Positions 39,304 through 52,613 of a DNA stretch of 64,000 bases are shown in pieces (position 1 is the first letter of the stretch; every line of letters starts with the position of its first letter). Below the pieces are notes generated by a model. It was not told the origin of the DNA. It did no database searches and saw only the letters and a program-made list of their open reading frames with translations. The position numbers and the translations under genes are program-made. Source of the stretch: Bacteroidota bacterium (GTDB lineage: Bacteria > Bacteroidota > Bacteroidia > Bacteroidales > F082); NCBI GenBank assembly GCA_014382445.1, contig JACNJS010000015.1:2298-66297 (forward strand). Direction: 5' to 3'.

Positions 39304-40311
39304 CTACAAATTAAACAAATCAATCAAGTCAACTACGCGACATGAATAACCCCACTCATTATCGTACCATGCTAGTATTTTAACTGTTCTTCCCTGAACC
39401 ATCAAACTCTCTACATCATAAATCGAGGAATGGCTGTTATGAATAATATCGACCGAAACAATCGGGTCTTCCTGGTATTCAAGGATTCCCTTCATCGGCC
39501 CTTCGGCAGCTTCTTTCATAGCTGCATTAATTTCATCTTTTGAAGCCTCTGTTTTCAAATTCACTACCAAATCAACCAATGAGCCGGTTGGCGTTGGAAT
39601 ACGGATAGCCATGCCATCCAGTTTTCCATTCAAATCAGGAATAATTTTTCCAACGGCTTTTGCAGCTCCTGTAGTTGTAGGAATTTGCGAAACTGCAGCC
39701 GAGCGTGCTCTTCGTAAATCAGAATGGGGTGCATCAAGAATAACCTGATCGTTAGTGTAAGCATGAATTGTTGTCATTAACCCGTTTTCAATCCCAAACC
39801 TGTCGTTCAGCACCTTAGCAACAGGAGCAAGGCAGTTGGTAGTGCACGATGCATTTGATACACATTGGTCGCTATCCTGCAACTCGTTATCGTTAACACC
39901 AATAACAATCATACGATCAATTTGATCTTTTGCCGGAACTGTTAGTATCACTTTTTTGGCTCCGTTTTTCAGATGGTCGCCATAGCCCCCTTTATTGCTT
40001 TCCCTCATTCTGAAAATTCCTGTTGCTTCAATAACAACATCAGGAGTTTTAGCCCACTTTATATCAATAGGTAATCTTTCTGAGGTTACTCTTATTTCCT
40101 GTCCATCAACAATCAGGTTATTTTCGTTGTATGTAACTTTTCCGTTAAACTTCCCTTGTGTTGAATCGTACTTTAGTAGGTGTGCAAGAGTTTTAGTGTC
40201 CGTTAAATCGTTAATCCCAACAACTTCCATATTATCTCTCTCATGGGCTATTTTAAACACATTTCGTCCAATACGCCCAAATCCGTTGATTCCAATTTTA
40301 ATTTTAGTCAT
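39304..40311 (-). CDS. gapA: Glyceraldehyde-3-phosphate dehydrogenase, type I
   Basis: A 335-residue glycolytic and gluconeogenic enzyme. The NAD-binding GINGFGRIGRNVFKIA, the catalytic SNASCTTNCLAP with its Cys, HAYTNDQ, and WYDNEWGYSCRVVDLI at the C-terminus are all canonical. Position after the second strand reads GINDLTD, where Asp favours NAD over NADP. A TATACTTG element lies at 40341-40348 on the minus strand. The gene stands alone between the anmK terminator and the divergent PPDK-like gene. Confidence 0.97.
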   Translation of the reverse strand: MTKIKIGINGFGRIGRNVFKIAHERDNMEVVGINDLTDTKTLAHLLKYDSTQGKFNGKVTYNENNLIVDGQEIRVTSERLPIDIKWAKTPDVVIEATGIFRMRESNKGGYGDHLKNGAKKVILTVPAKDQIDRMIVIGVNDNELQDSDQCVSNASCTTNCLAPVAKVLNDRFGIENGLMTTIHAYTNDQVILDAPHSDLRRARSAAVSQIPTTTGAAKAVGKIIPDLNGKLDGMAIRIPTPTGSLVDLVVNLKTEASKDEINAAMKEAAEGPMKGILEYQEDPIVSVDIIHNSHSSIYDVESLMVQGRTVKILAWYDNEWGYSCRVVDLIDLFNL

Positions 40312-40443
40312 AGCTATAGTTTTTATATATTAATAATTGGCAAGTATAATTTTTCAAGAATTATGTTTCTTAAGAATTAGAGTGGTATTATTATTCTTTC
40401 CCGAAACAAAAACATAGAGTATAAATCCTTTTAGTATTATCCT

Positions 40444-40451
40444 TACCTTTG
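40444..40451 (+). promoter_or_regulatory. -7 element of the PPDK-like gene
   Basis: TACCTTTG fits the consensus 72 bases before the start codon; no clear -33 element. Confidence 0.45.
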
Positions 40452-40523
40452 TAAGTTATACTTCAATTATTTTTAACAAAATTAAACTAAAATAATCTAT
40501 CATTTTGCGCATTATTTATCAGT

Positions 40524-43500
40524 ATGGCGGAAAAATTCATATCAAAAGCTCTTGAAGCAAACCTGGCAGAAACCAGATACAAGGATATAAAAATAGAATC
40601 TGACTATCAACAGTTTATAGATATGTCGAAAAAATACTTCGGCATTAATAAACGTGCAAACGATTGCATTGTTGAATTTCAGCACCCTTTTTCGAACAGA
40701 AAATTTGTTGCCGAAGAACTTCGTACAATAATTTTAACAGATTATTGGTATTATATAGCTCTTGATGACCCCAATAATGCTTTTACTGTACCTATTAACC
40801 TTCTTGAAAAGCTTCTTTTGGAATCGGAAAGTACCGAATATCATGTGCTGATCATACGAACTCTTCTCGAGTTCATTCAAAAACTTGCCAACGAAAAAAA
40901 TGATCATTCCAAAACAATTGAGAAGTGTTGTAATTCTATCAGAAATGGGCTGGAAAAAGATTCGCTTAGTTTTATTAAAGCATCAAAATATTTCAACAGG
41001 TATTTAGCAGATGTTGCAGAACTAGAGCAATGTAAAACTAAAATTCTGGAGACAAACTTAATCATATATTTAAAAAATATTGAGTACTGGGAAAACAGCA
41101 CTAAAATTGAAGAATGGTTAAAACAACACGCTGAAATATTGACCGTTAATCCTTCAGAAATTATAAATATATTAGGTAAACCATGGTTTATACACCTTAA
41201 AATAAAGCTTGCTGAAATTAAAGATTGGAAGACGTTGGTTAGCGAATTACCCGACTATGATATGGTGGCTGATAAATTTGCATCATCTGTTTCATTGTTT
41301 AATACGTTCATCGAAAAATTTTACTATAGCTTCTATCTGCTACAGCTTGATGGAATGTTTTCTCATAAAGAACGTATTATCTGGAACTTAAACAGCATGC
41401 TTAAGGAAACTATCGAAGAAGTTGATAATGACGATTTGATAAATTTCATCAACAAAATTTTTGATTTTTGTAAAGAGTTGCGAAACGGTCATACATCATC
41501 AGTTCTGGATATATTACTTACACTTGGTAAGAAGATAATTGATATTGATGATTCACCCGACTTTAAAATCATTCATCATTTTGAAGATAAAATAATTGAT
41601 TTTGGCTTTGAAACACCTGGTATTGTTTATGTTAACGAAGACTGGCAGCTGTCGGTAAATGACAATCATATTAAAAATATTAGTGTTTGGCTGGAATTAA
41701 TCGAATATTCTCAGCTCGAGATGGAGAAGCTATTATCGGTGTTAATTGTTAACCTTCAGTTAGGCGGTATTTTTTTGAGTGATACCGATTTGTTTCAACG
41801 GGAAATAACCAAAATTTTAAATTCAAACATCGCCCCTTTTTATAAAAAGATAAAACAGCTCACGAGGATATTTCCTGTTTATTTTAACGAAATAGGAGCC
41901 GAAGGAGAAATACGTAAAGTAACAACTTCGATGGATGAAATATCCTATCGCAAGGACAAATTAATCCATTTTCTGCGAAAGCAGGTACATACCGAAAGTA
42001 ACAACACATTAATTGGTCTTGCTAAACAGATATTTACTTTCTGGTACGATGGCAACCTTGCGGCAATTAAACAGTTTCTACCAAAAAATGTATACGATAC
42101 TATTGATAAAAAAAGCAAGTATTACGCACCGGTACATGAAATGGTTGTTGAGATGTGTACAATAAGCCAAAAATCACCAGGCGATTTACTTGCTTTAAAT
42201 GAAAAACAGTTTGAACTGATACTAGCCAAATTGCATTCAACCAATGAAAGTGATCTGTTACGTTTGCGTGATATGAGGATGCTATATGCATTTTTAAAAG
42301 AAAAATATTCGTTCGAAACTGTTGATATCACAAATTTGTTAAAACGATATTCTTACATTCACGATTCAGATATTGATAAGTTTGAATTAGCCCTAAAAAA
42401 GGATGACTTCGGAGCATCTCTGAAACTGATTTATAGTTTTATGAACAGTTTGAAGGAGATTATATTTAACCCTAAGCCCAGTCAGGGCTGGGAAAACATT
42501 TATCACAAAAGGCACATTGCCATTGGAATACCTTCAATGTATGGTACTTACCGTGAACCAAAGTTTGAAGCTCTGGGATTAACATTCAGGCTCGAAAATG
42601 TAGCCACACGGTTGATGGAAAACGTTGTAGATCAAATCAACCTTAACTACATTTCTGCAAAAACGTTAAAAGATATTTATGATATCCTTGATTTTTTTAG
42701 AGAAGGCCTTGAGTTAGACGGTATTACAAATCAAAGTTTTAACTCAAATCTGTTAATGTTAAAGTACAGCCTTCGGTCGCAAAGCTTATCATTTGATCAA
42801 TACATTAACATTTTTCAGTTTTTAGCCGAAGATGTGAAACGTACAATAATAAAGTACTTTTTACGATCGTACGAAATACCATTACGCATAGTTGTACCCC
42901 AACTTTTTGATAAAGAAAATAAACTTAACGCAAGTGAAGTTGTTAATCTTGTAAATAACAGGGCCGAAACATTTTACCGAGACGTTATTGCGGATGCATT
43001 TTTAATGCAACCACTCGATAATTTTATTGCACGGATACTGGAATCGCTGAGAGAAATGGCGGATAACCTTCAACCGTCGATGATTAATGAAGTGATGTCG
43101 TATAATTCTGATTTGGTGATAGCACGATTAGGCAAACCAAACCCACAAGTTGATAATCAATTGTTTTTAGGGTCGAAGGCATACCATCTTAAAAATTTAA
43201 GGATGGCTGGCTTTCCAATCCCGCCTGGATTTGTACTAACAACCGAAGTCTTCAGAAAACATGATGCAATATTTAAACATCCTGAGCTGCGAAACGAAAT
43301 GTACCAGCTCATTCGTGAACACCTTAGTAGAGTTGAAAAAGCATCACAAAAGGAATTTGGAAATACTGATAATCCGCTTCTTCTTTCAGTAAGATCCGGA
43401 ACAGCTATTTCAATGCCAGGTGCAATGGATACTCTCCTCAACGTTGGCATGAATGACGAGATTACCCTAAGCCTAAGCAAAAAACCCGGCTTCGAATGGT

Positions 43501-44642
43501 CGGCATGGGATTCATACCGGCGACTCCTGCAAAGTTGGGGGATGGCCTTCGGTTTAACAAGAGACGAGTTTGATAATGTTATTGAAAGTTATAAAGTTAA
43601 ATATAAAGTTGATCAAAAAACTAATTTTAGCCCAAAGGCAATGCGTGAAGTTGCTAAGGCCTATAAAAAAACAATATTAAACAGTGGAATTGAATTTGAA
43701 GAGGATGTTTTTAATCAGCTGATTATTAGTACAAACCTCGTTTTTGAATCATGGTCATCAGAAAGAGCAAAAGTTTACCGCCAGCACCTTGAAATAGCTG
43801 ATGAATGGGGAACAGCAGTTGTGGTTCAGCAAATGATATTTGGCAATATGCATCACAAATCAGGAACCGGAGTTGTATTCACTCAAGACCCAACCAAAGA
43901 AAAACAGGGAGTAAGCCTCTATGGTGATTTTACCTTTCGAAGTCAGGGCGAAGATATTGTTGCCGGACTGGTAGTACCGCTTCCTGTTAGCAAATATCAA
44001 AAATCATCTATTGATGGAAAACAATCATTACAGGAATCATGTCCTGAAATTTATAACAAATTAAATGATATGGCAATTGAGCTTACGGAGGACCTTGGTT
44101 ACAGCCCTCAGGAAATTGAGTTCACTTTTGAATCGGATAAACCCGAAGACCTTTACATATTACAGATAAGGGATCAGGACATGGCATCACGACAATCGGT
44201 AAATGTTTTTAAAACGAGTATCGACAAAATGGAATTGGTGGGTAGAGGTTTAGGAATTGGAGGTGGAGCCATGAACGGCCGGGTTGCATTTGATGAAAAT
44301 GATATAAAGCTAATTACGAAAAAGCATCCTAATGACGATATAATACTTGTAAGGCCCGATACTGTTCCTGATGATATTGGAATGATATTTAAAACCAATG
44401 GGCTGTTAACCGGAAAAGGTGGAGCAACTTCTCATGCGGCTGTTACTGCAGTTAGGCTTAATAAAACATCGGTTGTGAATTGTACAAGTCTTCATGTTTA
44501 TGAAAACGAAAAACGTTGCTCGCTTAGCAATACAATATTTGAATCAGGCGATCTTATATGTATTGATGGAACTTTGGGTAATGTTTATAAAGGTAATTAT
44601 CCTATCGAAAGTAAACAGGAGTATGCAGAGTTTAAGTTTTAG
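40524..44642 (+). CDS. Giant PPDK-like protein: helical N-terminus, ATP-grasp and phospho-His domains, no PEP barrel
   Basis: A 1372-residue cytoplasmic protein. Residues from about 883 match the pyruvate phosphate dikinase nucleotide-binding domain (GSKAYHLKNLRMAGFPIPPG, LLSVRSGTAISMPGAMDTLL), and the mobile phospho-histidine domain follows with His1304 in GLLTGKGGATSHAAVTAVR. The protein ends 68 residues later, so the C-terminal PEP/pyruvate TIM barrel of true PPDK and PEP synthase is missing. The first 880 residues are charged, mostly helical and unlike any domain I recognise. It could phosphorylate a different acceptor, or pass phosphate to a partner protein. Bacteroidota genomes often carry one such gene. 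It is monocistronic. Confidence 0.85.
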   Translation: MAEKFISKALEANLAETRYKDIKIESDYQQFIDMSKKYFGINKRANDCIVEFQHPFSNRKFVAEELRTIILTDYWYYIALDDPNNAFTVPINLLEKLLLESESTEYHVLIIRTLLEFIQKLANEKNDHSKTIEKCCNSIRNGLEKDSLSFIKASKYFNRYLADVAELEQCKTKILETNLIIYLKNIEYWENSTKIEEWLKQHAEILTVNPSEIINILGKPWFIHLKIKLAEIKDWKTLVSELPDYDMVADKFASSVSLFNTFIEKFYYSFYLLQLDGMFSHKERIIWNLNSMLKETIEEVDNDDLINFINKIFDFCKELRNGHTSSVLDILLTLGKKIIDIDDSPDFKIIHHFEDKIIDFGFETPGIVYVNEDWQLSVNDNHIKNISVWLELIEYSQLEMEKLLSVLIVNLQLGGIFLSDTDLFQREITKILNSNIAPFYKKIKQLTRIFPVYFNEIGAEGEIRKVTTSMDEISYRKDKLIHFLRKQVHTESNNTLIGLAKQIFTFWYDGNLAAIKQFLPKNVYDTIDKKSKYYAPVHEMVVEMCTISQKSPGDLLALNEKQFELILAKLHSTNESDLLRLRDMRMLYAFLKEKYSFETVDITNLLKRYSYIHDSDIDKFELALKKDDFGASLKLIYSFMNSLKEIIFNPKPSQGWENIYHKRHIAIGIPSMYGTYREPKFEALGLTFRLENVATRLMENVVDQINLNYISAKTLKDIYDILDFFREGLELDGITNQSFNSNLLMLKYSLRSQSLSFDQYINIFQFLAEDVKRTIIKYFLRSYEIPLRIVVPQLFDKENKLNASEVVNLVNNRAETFYRDVIADAFLMQPLDNFIARILESLREMADNLQPSMINEVMSYNSDLVIARLGKPNPQVDNQLFLGSKAYHLKNLRMAGFPIPPGFVLTTEVFRKHDAIFKHPELRNEMYQLIREHLSRVEKASQKEFGNTDNPLLLSVRSGTAISMPGAMDTLLNVGMNDEITLSLSKKPGFEWSAWDSYRRLLQSWGMAFGLTRDEFDNVIESYKVKYKVDQKTNFSPKAMREVAKAYKKTILNSGIEFEEDVFNQLIISTNLVFESWSSERAKVYRQHLEIADEWGTAVVVQQMIFGNMHHKSGTGVVFTQDPTKEKQGVSLYGDFTFRSQGEDIVAGLVVPLPVSKYQKSSIDGKQSLQESCPEIYNKLNDMAIELTEDLGYSPQEIEFTFESDKPEDLYILQIRDQDMASRQSVNVFKTSIDKMELVGRGLGIGGGAMNGRVAFDENDIKLITKKHPNDDIILVRPDTVPDDIGMIFKTNGLLTGKGGATSHAAVTAVRLNKTSVVNCTSLHVYENEKRCSLSNTIFESGDLICIDGTLGNVYKGNYPIESKQEYAEFKF

Positions 44643-48404: not shown

Positions 48405-51400
48405 ATGAATATAAAACCCGATTTTATTTTTGAAACCAGCTGGGAAATTTGTAATAAAATAGGCGGTATTTATACTGTTATTTCTACAAAAGCTAAAAGT
48501 ATTGTTGATGAATTTCAAGACAACTACGTACTTATAGGCCCCGATGTTTGGAAAGAAACTACTAATAACCCTGATTTTATTGAAGACCCTACCCTGTTTG
48601 AAGAGTGGAAAGTTAAAGCATGGAAAGAAGGTTTAAAAGTCCGTACTGGCAGGTGGAATATTGAAGGGTCTCCTCTCGTAATTCTCGTTGACTTCACACC
48701 ATTATTCTCTAAAAAAGATGAAATTTTCGCACACTTTTGGGAAACCTATAAACTTGATTCGTTACATGGAGAATGGGATTATATCGAATCAACCATATTT
48801 GGATACGCTGCCGGACAAGTAATTGAGAGTTTTCAAAATTATTACTTGCCTCACCCTAACAATGTTGTAGCCCATTTTCATGAATGGATGACAGGGGCCG
48901 GTGTTCTGTATCTCAAAAACAAAGCACCACATATCAGCACTGCATTTACAACTCATGCAACCGTTCTTGGAAGATCAATCGCCGGAAACGGCTTTCCCCT
49001 TTATGAAAATATTAAACAGTATCAGCCCGACCGCATCGCCCGCGAATTCAATGTAATAAGCAAGCACTCTCTTGAATTGCTTTCGGCTAAGGAAGCTGAT
49101 GTAACTACAACTGTTAGCCAGATTACAGCCAAGGAATGTAATCAATTTTTTGGCATAAAACCTTCGATAATCACAACCAATGGGTTCGAAGAAGACTTTG
49201 TTCCAACCGGAAAACAATTCGATAAGAAAAGAATTGATGCACGGAAAAAAGCTTTAGAAATTGCTTCTGAACATACAGGAACCTCCTACCCTGAAGATAC
49301 GATACTTCTAATTACAAGTGGTAGATATGAGTACATAAATAAGGGCATTGATTTGTTTATCAAATCATTAAGCAATATTCAAAAAAATAAACTAATAAAT
49401 AAAAATATTGTTGCCTTTATAACTGTACCTGCAGGGCATCACAAACCAATTGTTTCGGAAAACGGTAATTTTAACGGAAAAAATAGGTTTTTAACACATC
49501 AACTTCACGATCCTGATAATGATCCTATTATTAACGAAATAAAAACCCAGGGCTTTACAAATGATTCCGACAATAACGTACATATAATTTTTGCCCCGGT
49601 TTATCTGGATGGAAATGATGGTGTAATAAATCTTTCATATTATAACTTTTTAATTGGATTCGACCTTTCTGTTTTTCCATCTTATTATGAACCATGGGGA
49701 TATACACCATTGGAGAGCATCGCCTTTCGGGTACCTACAATTACAACTAACTACGCTGGTTTTGGCGATTGGGTAAATATTAACTTCGACCTGAAATACG
49801 ACTCAGTTTGCGTTATTGAAAGACATGAAGGAAATGATGAGAAAGCTATAAAAGAAATTCAAAATATCATACAGCGCTTTGCAAATTTAAATAGCACAAT
49901 TGAAATTAGAAACGAAACCAACAAGGTGCTAAGTATGGCATTATGGAAACAAATGGCAATTAATTATTTTAAAGCGTGGGAACTTGCAATAGAAAAATCT
50001 GAAAAAAGAAAAATTAATTTACCAACAAAAAAATATACAGAAACCTTAAAAATTGATGGTGCAGTAAATTCGGAAAAACCCGAGTGGAAGAAAATACTTG
50101 TTCAAAATAAATTGCCGGATGTACTTAAACCGCTCAAAGAACTTGCATACAATTTATGGTGGTCTTGGAATTATGAAGCAACAAATATGTTTGCAGAAAT
50201 TGATTCCGGCAAATGGAAAGCTTATGAAAATAACCCTGTTAGATTAGTGGAGTCTCTGTCAAAAGAAGAAATTGACGGATTACAAAATGATCATAAATTT
50301 ATAACACTCCTTAACAAAGTAACTACCAATTTCAAAAACTATATGTCGCAGGCTGATGACAAGCCTCAGGAGATGATTGCGTATTTCAGTATGGAGTATG
50401 GTTTGCATAATAGCATAAAAATATTTTCGGGAGGGCTGGGGATATTGGCCGGCGATTATTTAAAACAGGCAAGTGATTCGAATAAGAATATGGTAGCCGT
50501 TGGATTACTCTACCGATATGGCTATTTTAATCAGGAATTATCAATTTTTGGAGACCAACAAGCCAGATACAAAGCTCAAAAATTTACTCAACTGCCCTTA
50601 ATTCCTGTCAGAAAACCGTGCGGTGATTGGTTAACTGTTCTGGTAGCTCTACCCGGTAGAACAATAACTGCCAAAGTTTGGCAAATTAATGTAGGAAGAA
50701 TACCATTATACTTACTCGATACCGATATCGATATAAACAGCACTGAAGATCGGGCCATTACGGCTCAACTTTACGGAGGCGACAACGAACATCGCCTGAA
50801 ACAGGAGTTACTACTTGGTTTGGGCGGAGTGCGACTATTAGAAGGAATAGGACTTAAGCCAACCGTTTTTCACAGTAACGAAGGCCACTCAGCATTTAGC
50901 GGACTGGAACGTATTAAAAATATAATTGAAAAACACAATGTTGATTTCAATACTGCGAAAGAATTAGTGAGAGCTAACACATTATTCACAACACATACAC
51001 CTGTACCTGCCGGTCATGATACATTTGAAGAACATTTGATTAGAGCTTACTTGAGTCACTTCAGCGATATTTTTAAAATTAGCTGGGAACAATTTATGGC
51101 ATTGGGAAGGCATAATATTTCCAATTCTAACGAAAAATTTTCGATGAGTTTATTAGCCGCCGGGCTATCACAGGAAATTAATGGCGTTAGTAAAATTCAT
51201 GGCCGTGTGTCGCGTCAAATGTTTAGCAGTTTGTACCCGGGGTATTTCCCAGAAGAGATTCATATAGGCCATGTTACCAATGGTGTACATTATTTTACCT
51301 GGACAGATGAATTATGGCAAAAACTATATAAAGAAAATTTTGATAAGGATTTTGAAAGTAACCAATCTGATCAATCAGCCTGGAAAAATATATTAAACGT

Positions 51401-52613
51401 ACCAGATGAGCAAATTTGGCAAACCCGTCTTTCATTAAAGAAAAAACTGGTTGAAGCAATAAAGGAAAAACTTAAAAAAGACCTTACACGACGGCAGGAA
51501 TCACCTTCAGTAATTTTAAATTCCATGGCGGGCATTAGTGAAGAAACTCTAATAGTAGGTTTTGCACGACGATTTGCAACATATAAACGAGCTCATCTTT
51601 TATTTACTGATCTTGAACGACTTTCGCAAATAATAAATAATAACGACAGACCCATTATTTTTATTTTTTCGGGTAAAGCACATCCCAACGACAAAGCTGG
51701 TCAGGATCTAATAAAACGTATTATTGAGGTAAGTAAAATGAAAGATTTTATCGGGAAAATTCTTTTTCTTGAGAATTACGATATGATATCAGGAAAATTA
51801 CTTACAAGTAGCGTCGACATCTGGTTAAATACGCCTACAAGGCCACTCGAAGCTTCGGGCACAAGTGGTGAAAAAGCTGTTATGAACGGAGTAGCAAACT
51901 TTAGTGTGTTAGACGGTTGGTGGGCAGAAGGGTATAAACCTGATGCAGGATGGGCAATAGAGGAAGCAAAAACTTTTGCCAACCAACAATTTCAGGATGA
52001 GCTGGATGCTCAAATAATTTATAACACATTTGAAAATGAGATTGCAGCTATTTACTACGATAAAAATAGTGCCGGCGTTTCTGAAAAATGGGTTTCATAT
52101 ATTAAAAATACCATTGCCAAAGTTGCCCCTCATTTCACAATGCAGCGGATGCTTGAAGATTACTACAATAAATATTATTCGCCTTTATTCGACAGGAGAA
52201 ATGAACTTTACGCCAACAAGTTTGCAGTTGCAAAATCATTGGTAGCATGGAAGAGCAAAGTACAAAAATCGTGGGAGAATATTTCGCTTGATTCGTTAAT
52301 TGTGCCCGATGCTGATAATAAACCATTAGAATTTGGTAAACATTTTGTAGCCGAGATTACTCTTAATATTCCGGGACTTGAACCTGCCGACATTGGAGCA
52401 GAAATAGTAATGGGAAACAAATCAAATGGTGATGTAAAGAAAATTGATTTTAAGAGCGAACTTAAACTTTCTGACGCTGAAGATGGCAAAGCAAAATTCA
52501 AATGCGAATTTCCTTTGGAACATACCGGAGTATACGATTATGCATTCAGGATATTCCCCAAAAACAGTAGTTTAAGATACAGGATGGATTTTCCACTGGT
52601 TAAATGGATATAA
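48405..52613 (+). CDS. Glycogen synthase (GT3-like) fused to alpha-glucan phosphorylase (GT35)
   Basis: A 1402-residue fusion. Residues 1-545 resemble eukaryote-type GT3 glycogen synthase: ETSWEICNKIGGIYTVISTK, HFHEWMTGAG, TTHATVLGRS and YYEPWGYTPLE for nucleotide-sugar binding. Residues 560-1290 are an alpha-glucan phosphorylase: ELAYNLWWSWNYEA, EYGLHNSIKIFSGGLGILAGD, FHSNEGHSAF, and the PLP-binding Lys1157 in EASGTSGEKAVMNG. The last 110 residues are a beta-sandwich-like tail. One part builds glycogen from a nucleotide sugar, the other releases glucose-1-phosphate. A single chain holding opposite activities needs internal regulation. The fusion is also known to me in other Bacteroidota. Confidence 0.92.
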   Translation: MNIKPDFIFETSWEICNKIGGIYTVISTKAKSIVDEFQDNYVLIGPDVWKETTNNPDFIEDPTLFEEWKVKAWKEGLKVRTGRWNIEGSPLVILVDFTPLFSKKDEIFAHFWETYKLDSLHGEWDYIESTIFGYAAGQVIESFQNYYLPHPNNVVAHFHEWMTGAGVLYLKNKAPHISTAFTTHATVLGRSIAGNGFPLYENIKQYQPDRIAREFNVISKHSLELLSAKEADVTTTVSQITAKECNQFFGIKPSIITTNGFEEDFVPTGKQFDKKRIDARKKALEIASEHTGTSYPEDTILLITSGRYEYINKGIDLFIKSLSNIQKNKLINKNIVAFITVPAGHHKPIVSENGNFNGKNRFLTHQLHDPDNDPIINEIKTQGFTNDSDNNVHIIFAPVYLDGNDGVINLSYYNFLIGFDLSVFPSYYEPWGYTPLESIAFRVPTITTNYAGFGDWVNINFDLKYDSVCVIERHEGNDEKAIKEIQNIIQRFANLNSTIEIRNETNKVLSMALWKQMAINYFKAWELAIEKSEKRKINLPTKKYTETLKIDGAVNSEKPEWKKILVQNKLPDVLKPLKELAYNLWWSWNYEATNMFAEIDSGKWKAYENNPVRLVESLSKEEIDGLQNDHKFITLLNKVTTNFKNYMSQADDKPQEMIAYFSMEYGLHNSIKIFSGGLGILAGDYLKQASDSNKNMVAVGLLYRYGYFNQELSIFGDQQARYKAQKFTQLPLIPVRKPCGDWLTVLVALPGRTITAKVWQINVGRIPLYLLDTDIDINSTEDRAITAQLYGGDNEHRLKQELLLGLGGVRLLEGIGLKPTVFHSNEGHSAFSGLERIKNIIEKHNVDFNTAKELVRANTLFTTHTPVPAGHDTFEEHLIRAYLSHFSDIFKISWEQFMALGRHNISNSNEKFSMSLLAAGLSQEINGVSKIHGRVSRQMFSSLYPGYFPEEIHIGHVTNGVHYFTWTDELWQKLYKENFDKDFESNQSDQSAWKNILNVPDEQIWQTRLSLKKKLVEAIKEKLKKDLTRRQESPSVILNSMAGISEETLIVGFARRFATYKRAHLLFTDLERLSQIINNNDRPIIFIFSGKAHPNDKAGQDLIKRIIEVSKMKDFIGKILFLENYDMISGKLLTSSVDIWLNTPTRPLEASGTSGEKAVMNGVANFSVLDGWWAEGYKPDAGWAIEEAKTFANQQFQDELDAQIIYNTFENEIAAIYYDKNSAGVSEKWVSYIKNTIAKVAPHFTMQRMLEDYYNKYYSPLFDRRNELYANKFAVAKSLVAWKSKVQKSWENISLDSLIVPDADNKPLEFGKHFVAEITLNIPGLEPADIGAEIVMGNKSNGDVKKIDFKSELKLSDAEDGKAKFKCEFPLEHTGVYDYAFRIFPKNSSLRYRMDFPLVKWI

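Follow-up and report, generated by a model that had tools for sequence, protein, structure and literature searches.

The 64,000-nucleotide stretch of DNA analysed here (the window; positions 2,298 to 66,297 of contig JACNJS010000015.1, assembly GCA_014382445.1, contig 29 of the 3.47-Mb genome of a Bacteroidales bacterium) encodes a protein of 1372 residues related to pyruvate phosphate dikinase (PPDK), called the dikinase below. The gene lies divergently from a gene for glyceraldehyde-3-phosphate dehydrogenase (GAPDH), and the features of the locus are listed in Table 1. An earlier note, made from the letters of this DNA, had described intact ATP-grasp and phospho-histidine domains with His1304, a missing phosphoenolpyruvate (PEP)/pyruvate barrel and about 880 residues of no recognisable family. 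All three parts of this description hold. Pfam searches at an E-value of 0.01 found PPDK_N (PF01326) at residues 882–1227 (E 9e-32) and the PEP-utilizers mobile domain (PF00391) at residues 1271–1352 (E 1e-13), no match to the PEP-utilizers_C barrel (PF02896) in the protein and no family in residues 1–880. As the ATP-grasp and phospho-histidine parts are intact and the PEP barrel is absent, the acceptor of the phosphate is probably not pyruvate, as the note had also concluded. Residues 878–1233 additionally match PHROG 18609 ('kinase', 685 positions) with 296 bits, and from this match PPDK-like ATP-grasp proteins seem to be carried by some phages.

Table 1. Features of the dikinase locus (window coordinates).
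Feature	Coordinates	Strand	Basis
PPDK-like dikinase gene, 1372 aa, ATG start	40524..44642	+	Open reading frame, Pfam, full-length homologues
N-terminal region, residues 1–875, predicted helical, solenoid-like	40524..43148	+	AlphaFold2 model, Foldseek/VIA, no convincing Pfam match
Conserved N-terminal segment 1, residues 359–500	41598..42023	+	Column conservation
Conserved N-terminal segment 2, residues 643–697, invariant KRH (662–664) and GIPSMYG (668–674)	42450..42614	+	Column conservation
PPDK-type ATP-grasp domain, residues 882–1227	43167..44204	+	PF01326, superposition on 1dik
Phospho-His swivel domain, residues 1271–1352	44334..44579	+	PF00391, aligns with PPDK carrier domain
His1304 codon, TSH motif aligned with the PPDK catalytic His motif	44433..44435	+	1kbl alignment, H in 77/77 rows
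Type I GAPDH gene, divergent neighbour conserved in relatives	39304..40311	-	TIGR01534, 435 bits (cut-off 367)
Intergenic region, 212 bp, separating the divergent genes for GAPDH and the dikinase	40312..40523	.	Open reading frame coordinates

The catalytic half of the protein was compared with PPDK by sequence and by structure. Residues ~881–1361 match the PPDK of Clostridium symbiosum with an E-value of 8e-77 (phmmer against PDB sequences), and the C-terminal part of a model of residues 173–1372 superposes on PPDK 1dik with Z 40.2 and 2.3 Å over 472 residues at 33% identity. In an alignment with 1kbl, K885, R957, E1197, E1199, Q1214, R1216 and H1304 pair with PPDK residues that we take to be K22, R92, D321, E323, Q335, R337 and H455. 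All seven are identical in 77 of 77 distinct sequences from frames longer than 1300 residues, the window protein included. The nearest NCBIfam model is PPDK TIGR01828 with 374 bits, far below its cut-off of 843; NF004531, a PPDK model of 534 positions, reaches 288 bits (cut-off 456), and PEP_synth, likewise below its own cut-off, reaches 72. Judged from these matches, the catalytic half is of the PPDK type and not of the PEP-synthase type. The dikinase thus shares both catalytic domains, the ATP-site residues and the histidine with PPDK, but lacks the barrel and carries about 880 helical residues in front. The host genome has, on another contig, a separate full-length PPDK-type protein of 936 residues, and a gene beside it was read by eye as PEP carboxykinase.

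A scan of species genomes with short peptides led to 61 related loci, with titles naming mostly Bacteroidales or Bacteroidetes. The match runs from residue 1–3 to residue 1362 or beyond in 56 of them, and since these come from many assemblies, the architecture does not stem from an assembly error. Sequence identity to the window protein is 46–81% in the 42 relatives that were aligned. When 295 genomes of the order were scanned with a profile, at least 26 carriers were identified, a lower bound among the matches listed, with up to two candidates scored per genome and further weak matches that could be fragments. Long matches were obtained in 24 carriers, the other two (G369 and G300) being cut by contig ends; the remaining listed matches cover only residues ~829 onward, as an ordinary PPDK would. 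With a profile of the N-terminal region, only the host genome matched among 395 genomes of the phylum, five more of which belong to the host's order. As far as this phylum goes, the family thus seems limited to a part of that order; a single-sequence scan matched in one of 296 phylum genomes. In six loci (L007, L037, L043, L052, L059 and L062) the frame breaks off early by stops, frameshifts or runs of N, which may reflect sequencing error or decay.

Outside the phylum, the peptide-pattern scan and one further order were covered. One dikinase (L065, contig JAENZQ010000015.1) lies in a genome labelled Anaerovorax (Bacillota), and among 98 genomes of that genome's order only this genome itself and one short fragment matched; its origin may be a transfer or mis-binning. 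In a tree of 44 dikinases, L065 and L081 stand on long branches. No relative of the N-terminal region was found in viral contigs, searched with two short conserved peptides, or in plasmids and phage records.

For the N-terminal region, structure prediction had been suggested in the earlier note. An AlphaFold2 model from a 65-row alignment, with the region modelled whole and not as separate subdomains, is helical apart from a few bridge residues (mean pLDDT 83.6, pTM 0.73); the longer model of residues 173–1372 has a mean pLDDT of 84.6 and a pTM of 0.66. Foldseek and VIA-align returned many unrelated helical solenoids such as exportins, importins, CAND1 and designed repeats, at TM ~0.2 or less among the best 50 Foldseek rows and at VIA Z no higher than 10.8, a range that the tool names as common for helical repeats. 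Assignment to a known fold was rejected on these low and middling scores, and the region is predicted to be helical and solenoid-like with no named fold. A PDB profile search with the N-terminal alignment gave 8tno_A ('UNC_239', E 1.3) as its sole match, taken as chance. Pfam at E 0.1 on 13 diverse N-terminal regions gave only scattered weak matches (nine families, best E 0.012) and no carbohydrate-binding family.

Conservation within this region is uneven. Columns conserved in at least 98% of the 77 sequences make up 39% of residues 359–500 and 49% of residues 643–697, compared with 5% of 1–358, 6% of 501–642, 14% of 698–875, 28% of the ATP-grasp domain and 29% of the His domain; because the rows include close relatives, these values are meaningful only when one segment is compared with another. 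Invariant R, K, H, D and E residues are frequent in the two segments, with near-invariant charged residues such as R464, R476, H482, R485, K486, H489, E491, K662, R663, H664 and E678. Because their conservation exceeds that of the catalytic domains, the alignment suggests that an acceptor site or a partner interface is located here. Residues 657–674, among the most conserved, have pLDDT below 50 in both models (484–503 of the longer model) and are predicted to form a mobile loop or a segment that depends on a partner. The N-terminal region looks like a new acceptor domain in a new domain order.

The most constant neighbour of the dikinase is GAPDH, which the earlier note had not mentioned. A GAPDH gene lies nearby in 54 of the 61 loci, and in 53 it is a homologue of the type I gene in the window, placed upstream and divergent (within 400 bp in 44 loci, at 1.0–5.4 kb in nine more). 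The Bacillota-labelled locus has a GAPDH-like gene directly downstream, and the seven loci without GAPDH have just 0–2.7 kb of upstream DNA. Next in constancy is a LepA-type gene (33/61); genes for citrate synthase (9/61) and isocitrate dehydrogenase (7/61) are near in few loci. No neighbour was as constant as GAPDH in the neighbourhoods sampled, where the remaining flanking genes differ from locus to locus. In a further 13, more divergent relatives, another GAPDH-like gene of ~420 residues (GAPDH2) follows the dikinase in the same direction in 11 cases, and a normal GAPDH gene precedes it in five. The other two are G389 and G435, with the GAPDH2 gene on another contig; in G389 the dikinase itself ends at a contig end. 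Among five further members, GAPDH is adjacent in G424 and G472 and 2–4 kb away in G452 and G395. Three kinds of GAPDH gene are thereby linked to the dikinase: the window type, a type 44–47% identical and GAPDH2. Since the dikinase lies beside GAPDH genes in most relatives examined, it probably works at the GAPDH step, and a functional link of some kind between the two is likely.

GAPDH2 and the dikinase also share their distribution. In the order-wide scan, with up to six candidates scored per genome, GAPDH2 was detected in 14 of 295 genomes at 711–781 bits, the next match scoring 142. All 14 are among the 26 carriers, with the gene adjacent to the dikinase in 11, and GAPDH2 was not found in any of the other 269 genomes. 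Within genera g173, g175, g275 and g229, both genes are present in G534, G442, G539 and G383 and both are missing from the sister genomes G327 and G440; G329 and G535; G446; and G484 (completeness 68% for G535 and 88% for G484). As sisters in four genera have both or neither, the two genes seem to come or go together. In the dikinase tree, one branch (SH-aLRT 99) splits off the GAPDH2-linked members, so the association is a trait of one lineage and not 14 independent events. L065 is the only pair of dikinase and GAPDH2 genes found in a genome labelled Bacillota.

GAPDH2 retains the catalytic Cys (SASCTTT) and His (STVHA or STIHA), which makes an acyl-phosphate substrate plausible. In its Rossmann region the position after Asn has lost its Asp (NVGR or the like instead of NDLT), and most sequences have ILSTTG where IPTTTG is usual; work on engineered bacterial GAPDH reportedly connects such cofactor-motif changes with the use of NADP. 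The sequence suggests a divergent, perhaps NADP-type enzyme. A third GAPDH type (e.g. C28:50226-51233 of the host genome, G000; frames of 483–522 residues, 341–366 bits) was also seen in carriers. Among the matches listed, it occurs in 10 of the 12 carriers that lack GAPDH2, in none of the 14 that have it and in one (G310) of 26 non-carriers, which were hand-picked high-quality genomes and not a random sample; by this distribution, carriers tend to have several GAPDH types.

From the gene linkage we infer that the GAPDH reaction either receives the phosphate or supplies it. The GAPDH product 1,3-bisphosphoglycerate is an acyl phosphate, whose transfer potential would suit an exchange with phosphohistidine, and phosphoglycerate kinase (PGK), the usual partner of GAPDH, phosphorylates 3-phosphoglycerate with ATP. 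We tentatively favour a dikinase of PPDK descent that serves the GAPDH step, with the carboxylate of 3-phosphoglycerate as the most likely acceptor. By analogy with PPDK and VadK, a truncated PPDK relative discussed below, the ATP-grasp domain would phosphorylate His1304 from ATP, and the swivel domain would then deliver the phosphate not to a PEP barrel but to the helical domain at the N-terminus. There, it would be passed to 3-phosphoglycerate to form 1,3-bisphosphoglycerate, to be consumed by GAPDH; alternatively, the reaction may run in reverse and make ATP from AMP and pyrophosphate. Such a phosphoglycerate dikinase would work alongside PGK, perhaps docked on GAPDH. Its cost of two high-energy bonds, or its recovery of ATP from pyrophosphate and AMP, would parallel PPDK versus pyruvate kinase. 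More doubtful is the proposal in its full form, a pyrophosphate/AMP-linked alternative to PGK that would make or consume 1,3-bisphosphoglycerate through a phospho-His swivel and an undescribed acceptor domain, docked on NAD- and NADP-type GAPDHs and giving an irreversible or pyrophosphate-driven step. Among the open-access papers listed by the literature searches, none described this architecture or a phosphoglycerate dikinase enzyme; the phrase itself occurred in a single one, on rice proteomics.

Several points weigh against 3-phosphoglycerate as the acceptor. A substrate is not identified by the genes that lie nearby, and the linkage counts are not independent, as the linked genes share ancestry and the two arrangements are split by a single branch (SH-aLRT 99) in the tree of 44 dikinases. 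The linkage also has gaps: GAPDH2 does not follow the dikinase in G435, GAPDH is on another contig in G343, G544 and G470, three of the 12 carriers that lack GAPDH2, and G470 has none within ~6 kb of the dikinase. Neither Foldseek, VIA, the PDB profile search nor Pfam yielded a known fold or family that supports binding of 3-phosphoglycerate, and helical solenoids are more often protein-binding scaffolds than small-molecule sites. PGK is present in 25 of the 26 carriers and in 262 of the other 269 genomes of the order. No PGK is therefore being replaced, and a role of the dikinase as a substitute for it was rejected, also in the comparison with the 26 chosen non-carriers. The sole carrier without PGK, G470, is 94% complete, and its absence carries no weight, as 7 of the 269 other genomes also lack the gene. 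In the same searches, G348 (C110:1566-3908) and G391 (C35:226821-229157) showed 797-residue frames, each with two PGK matches in tandem, which by sequence look like fusions of two phosphoglycerate kinases, and PGK matches in G491 and G576 lie in frames of 821–824 residues.

It is possible, and nearly as likely as a phosphoglycerate dikinase, that the protein is a regulatory phosphotransferase; the sequence does not separate the two. His1304 would be autophosphorylated, and the solenoid would bind GAPDH or a complex that contains it, so that binding or transfer of phosphate would tune GAPDH activity. A partner protein had also been considered as the acceptor in the earlier note, and this may still hold. 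The solenoid-like model fits this, as do the linkage to three kinds of GAPDH gene and the conserved loop at 657–674, predicted as mobile, as if it became ordered on a partner. A precedent is VadK (Rv1127c), described as a truncated PPDK relative of ~50 kDa with the ATP-binding and His domains (PMC13400623). It is reported to autophosphorylate His422, as seen by liquid chromatography–mass spectrometry, and to interact with methylcitrate enzymes in pull-down experiments, and is proposed to act on methylcitrate synthase (PMC13400623). The dikinase resembles VadK in having both domains without a PEP barrel and a link to metabolic enzymes. However, VadK belongs to another lineage with other partner enzymes and is described with two domains only, whereas the dikinase has a conserved N-terminal region of 875 residues and does not share this composition. 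The conservation of this region above that of the catalytic domains would moreover be unusual for a regulator, and the binding of GAPDH is itself proposed from genes and models.

Somewhat less probably, the dikinase would act on a different small molecule from central metabolism, such as glycerate, a triose or another sugar acid, and be co-regulated with GAPDH. Linkage to GAPDH paralogues, of which one shows changed cofactor motifs, is compatible with such a role, and acceptor domains of several kinds occur in this superfamily. Rifampin phosphotransferase (RPH) is described with an exchanged acceptor domain on a dikinase platform (PMC4844700), and the two-component systems HpeHI, CreHI and PpsAB are likewise described as homologous to PPDK only in the ATP-grasp and swivel domains (PMC12167813). 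The dikinase follows the same ATP-grasp/His-swivel logic, in which the acceptor domain is exchanged. RPH chains align with its residues ~858–1358. The acceptor domain of RPH and HpeH is described as being of the RIF-binding type, whereas the dikinase has the helical region, and no match to the RIF-binding family was found outside its ATP-grasp and His regions by NCBIfam, with the N-terminal region modelled whole. On the other hand, no gene of another pathway was constant in the neighbourhoods sampled.

A glucan target, which the earlier note had named as worth testing, has become highly improbable. The window does carry a GlgA–GlgP fusion 3.8 kb downstream of the dikinase (48405-52613, a glycogen synthase/DUF3417 alpha-glucan phosphorylase fusion of 1402 residues). 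However, such a fusion neighbours the dikinase in only two of the 61 loci, and since Glycogen_syn matches in frames of ~1400 residues are common across the order, it is not special to this locus. The suggested co-occurrence with glycogen genes showed no association: Glycogen_syn (PF05693) was found in 23 of the 26 carriers versus 25 of the 26 chosen non-carriers, two of the three carriers without it being incomplete assemblies, and the comparison is uninformative on a glucan target. Also the helical N-terminal model and the lack of a carbohydrate-binding family in 13 diverse members speak against a protein that acts on glycogen. Glucan water dikinases (GWD/PWD) are likewise large, with an N-terminal acceptor region, but have beta-rich starch-binding modules (CBM45/CBM20), none of which was found in the dikinase, and a His domain that is followed by a C-terminal ATP-grasp domain, the opposite of the order seen here.

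A PEP barrel supplied by a separate adjacent protein, which the note had named as a finding that would speak against its view, was not found. All PF02896 matches lie off the dikinase contig in the 24 of 26 carriers that have any. They were at one place in 23 carriers (in the host genome inside the 936-residue PPDK) and in two pieces in G389, with none in G442 and G539, and a barrel from another protein was rejected as an explanation. In 21 of the 24 carriers the match falls in a PPDK-like frame of 847–987 residues (in G389 for one of the two pieces only), and in G544, G418 and G529 in shorter frames of 299–661 residues. Least credible of all is a decayed or non-functional PPDK derivative: the missing barrel and the interrupted frames at some loci would fit it, but the catalytic residues are identical in 77 of 77 sequences, the full length with its N-terminal region is conserved across families, and because at least 26 of the 295 genomes scanned in the order encode the dikinase and the host has a PPDK of its own, it is not a broken PPDK.

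ATP-grasp/His-swivel dikinases form a modular platform in which changes of the acceptor domain opened new chemistries, with pyruvate, starch, rifampin and phenols as acceptors. The family reported here apparently adds a new acceptor domain and a new order of domains, and the connection with GAPDH directs attention to a much-studied pathway. If 3-phosphoglycerate is indeed the acceptor, lower glycolysis would have an enzyme that was not found catalogued. If the dikinase instead regulates GAPDH, a PPDK relative would have become a regulator of central metabolism in a second instance, VadK being the first.

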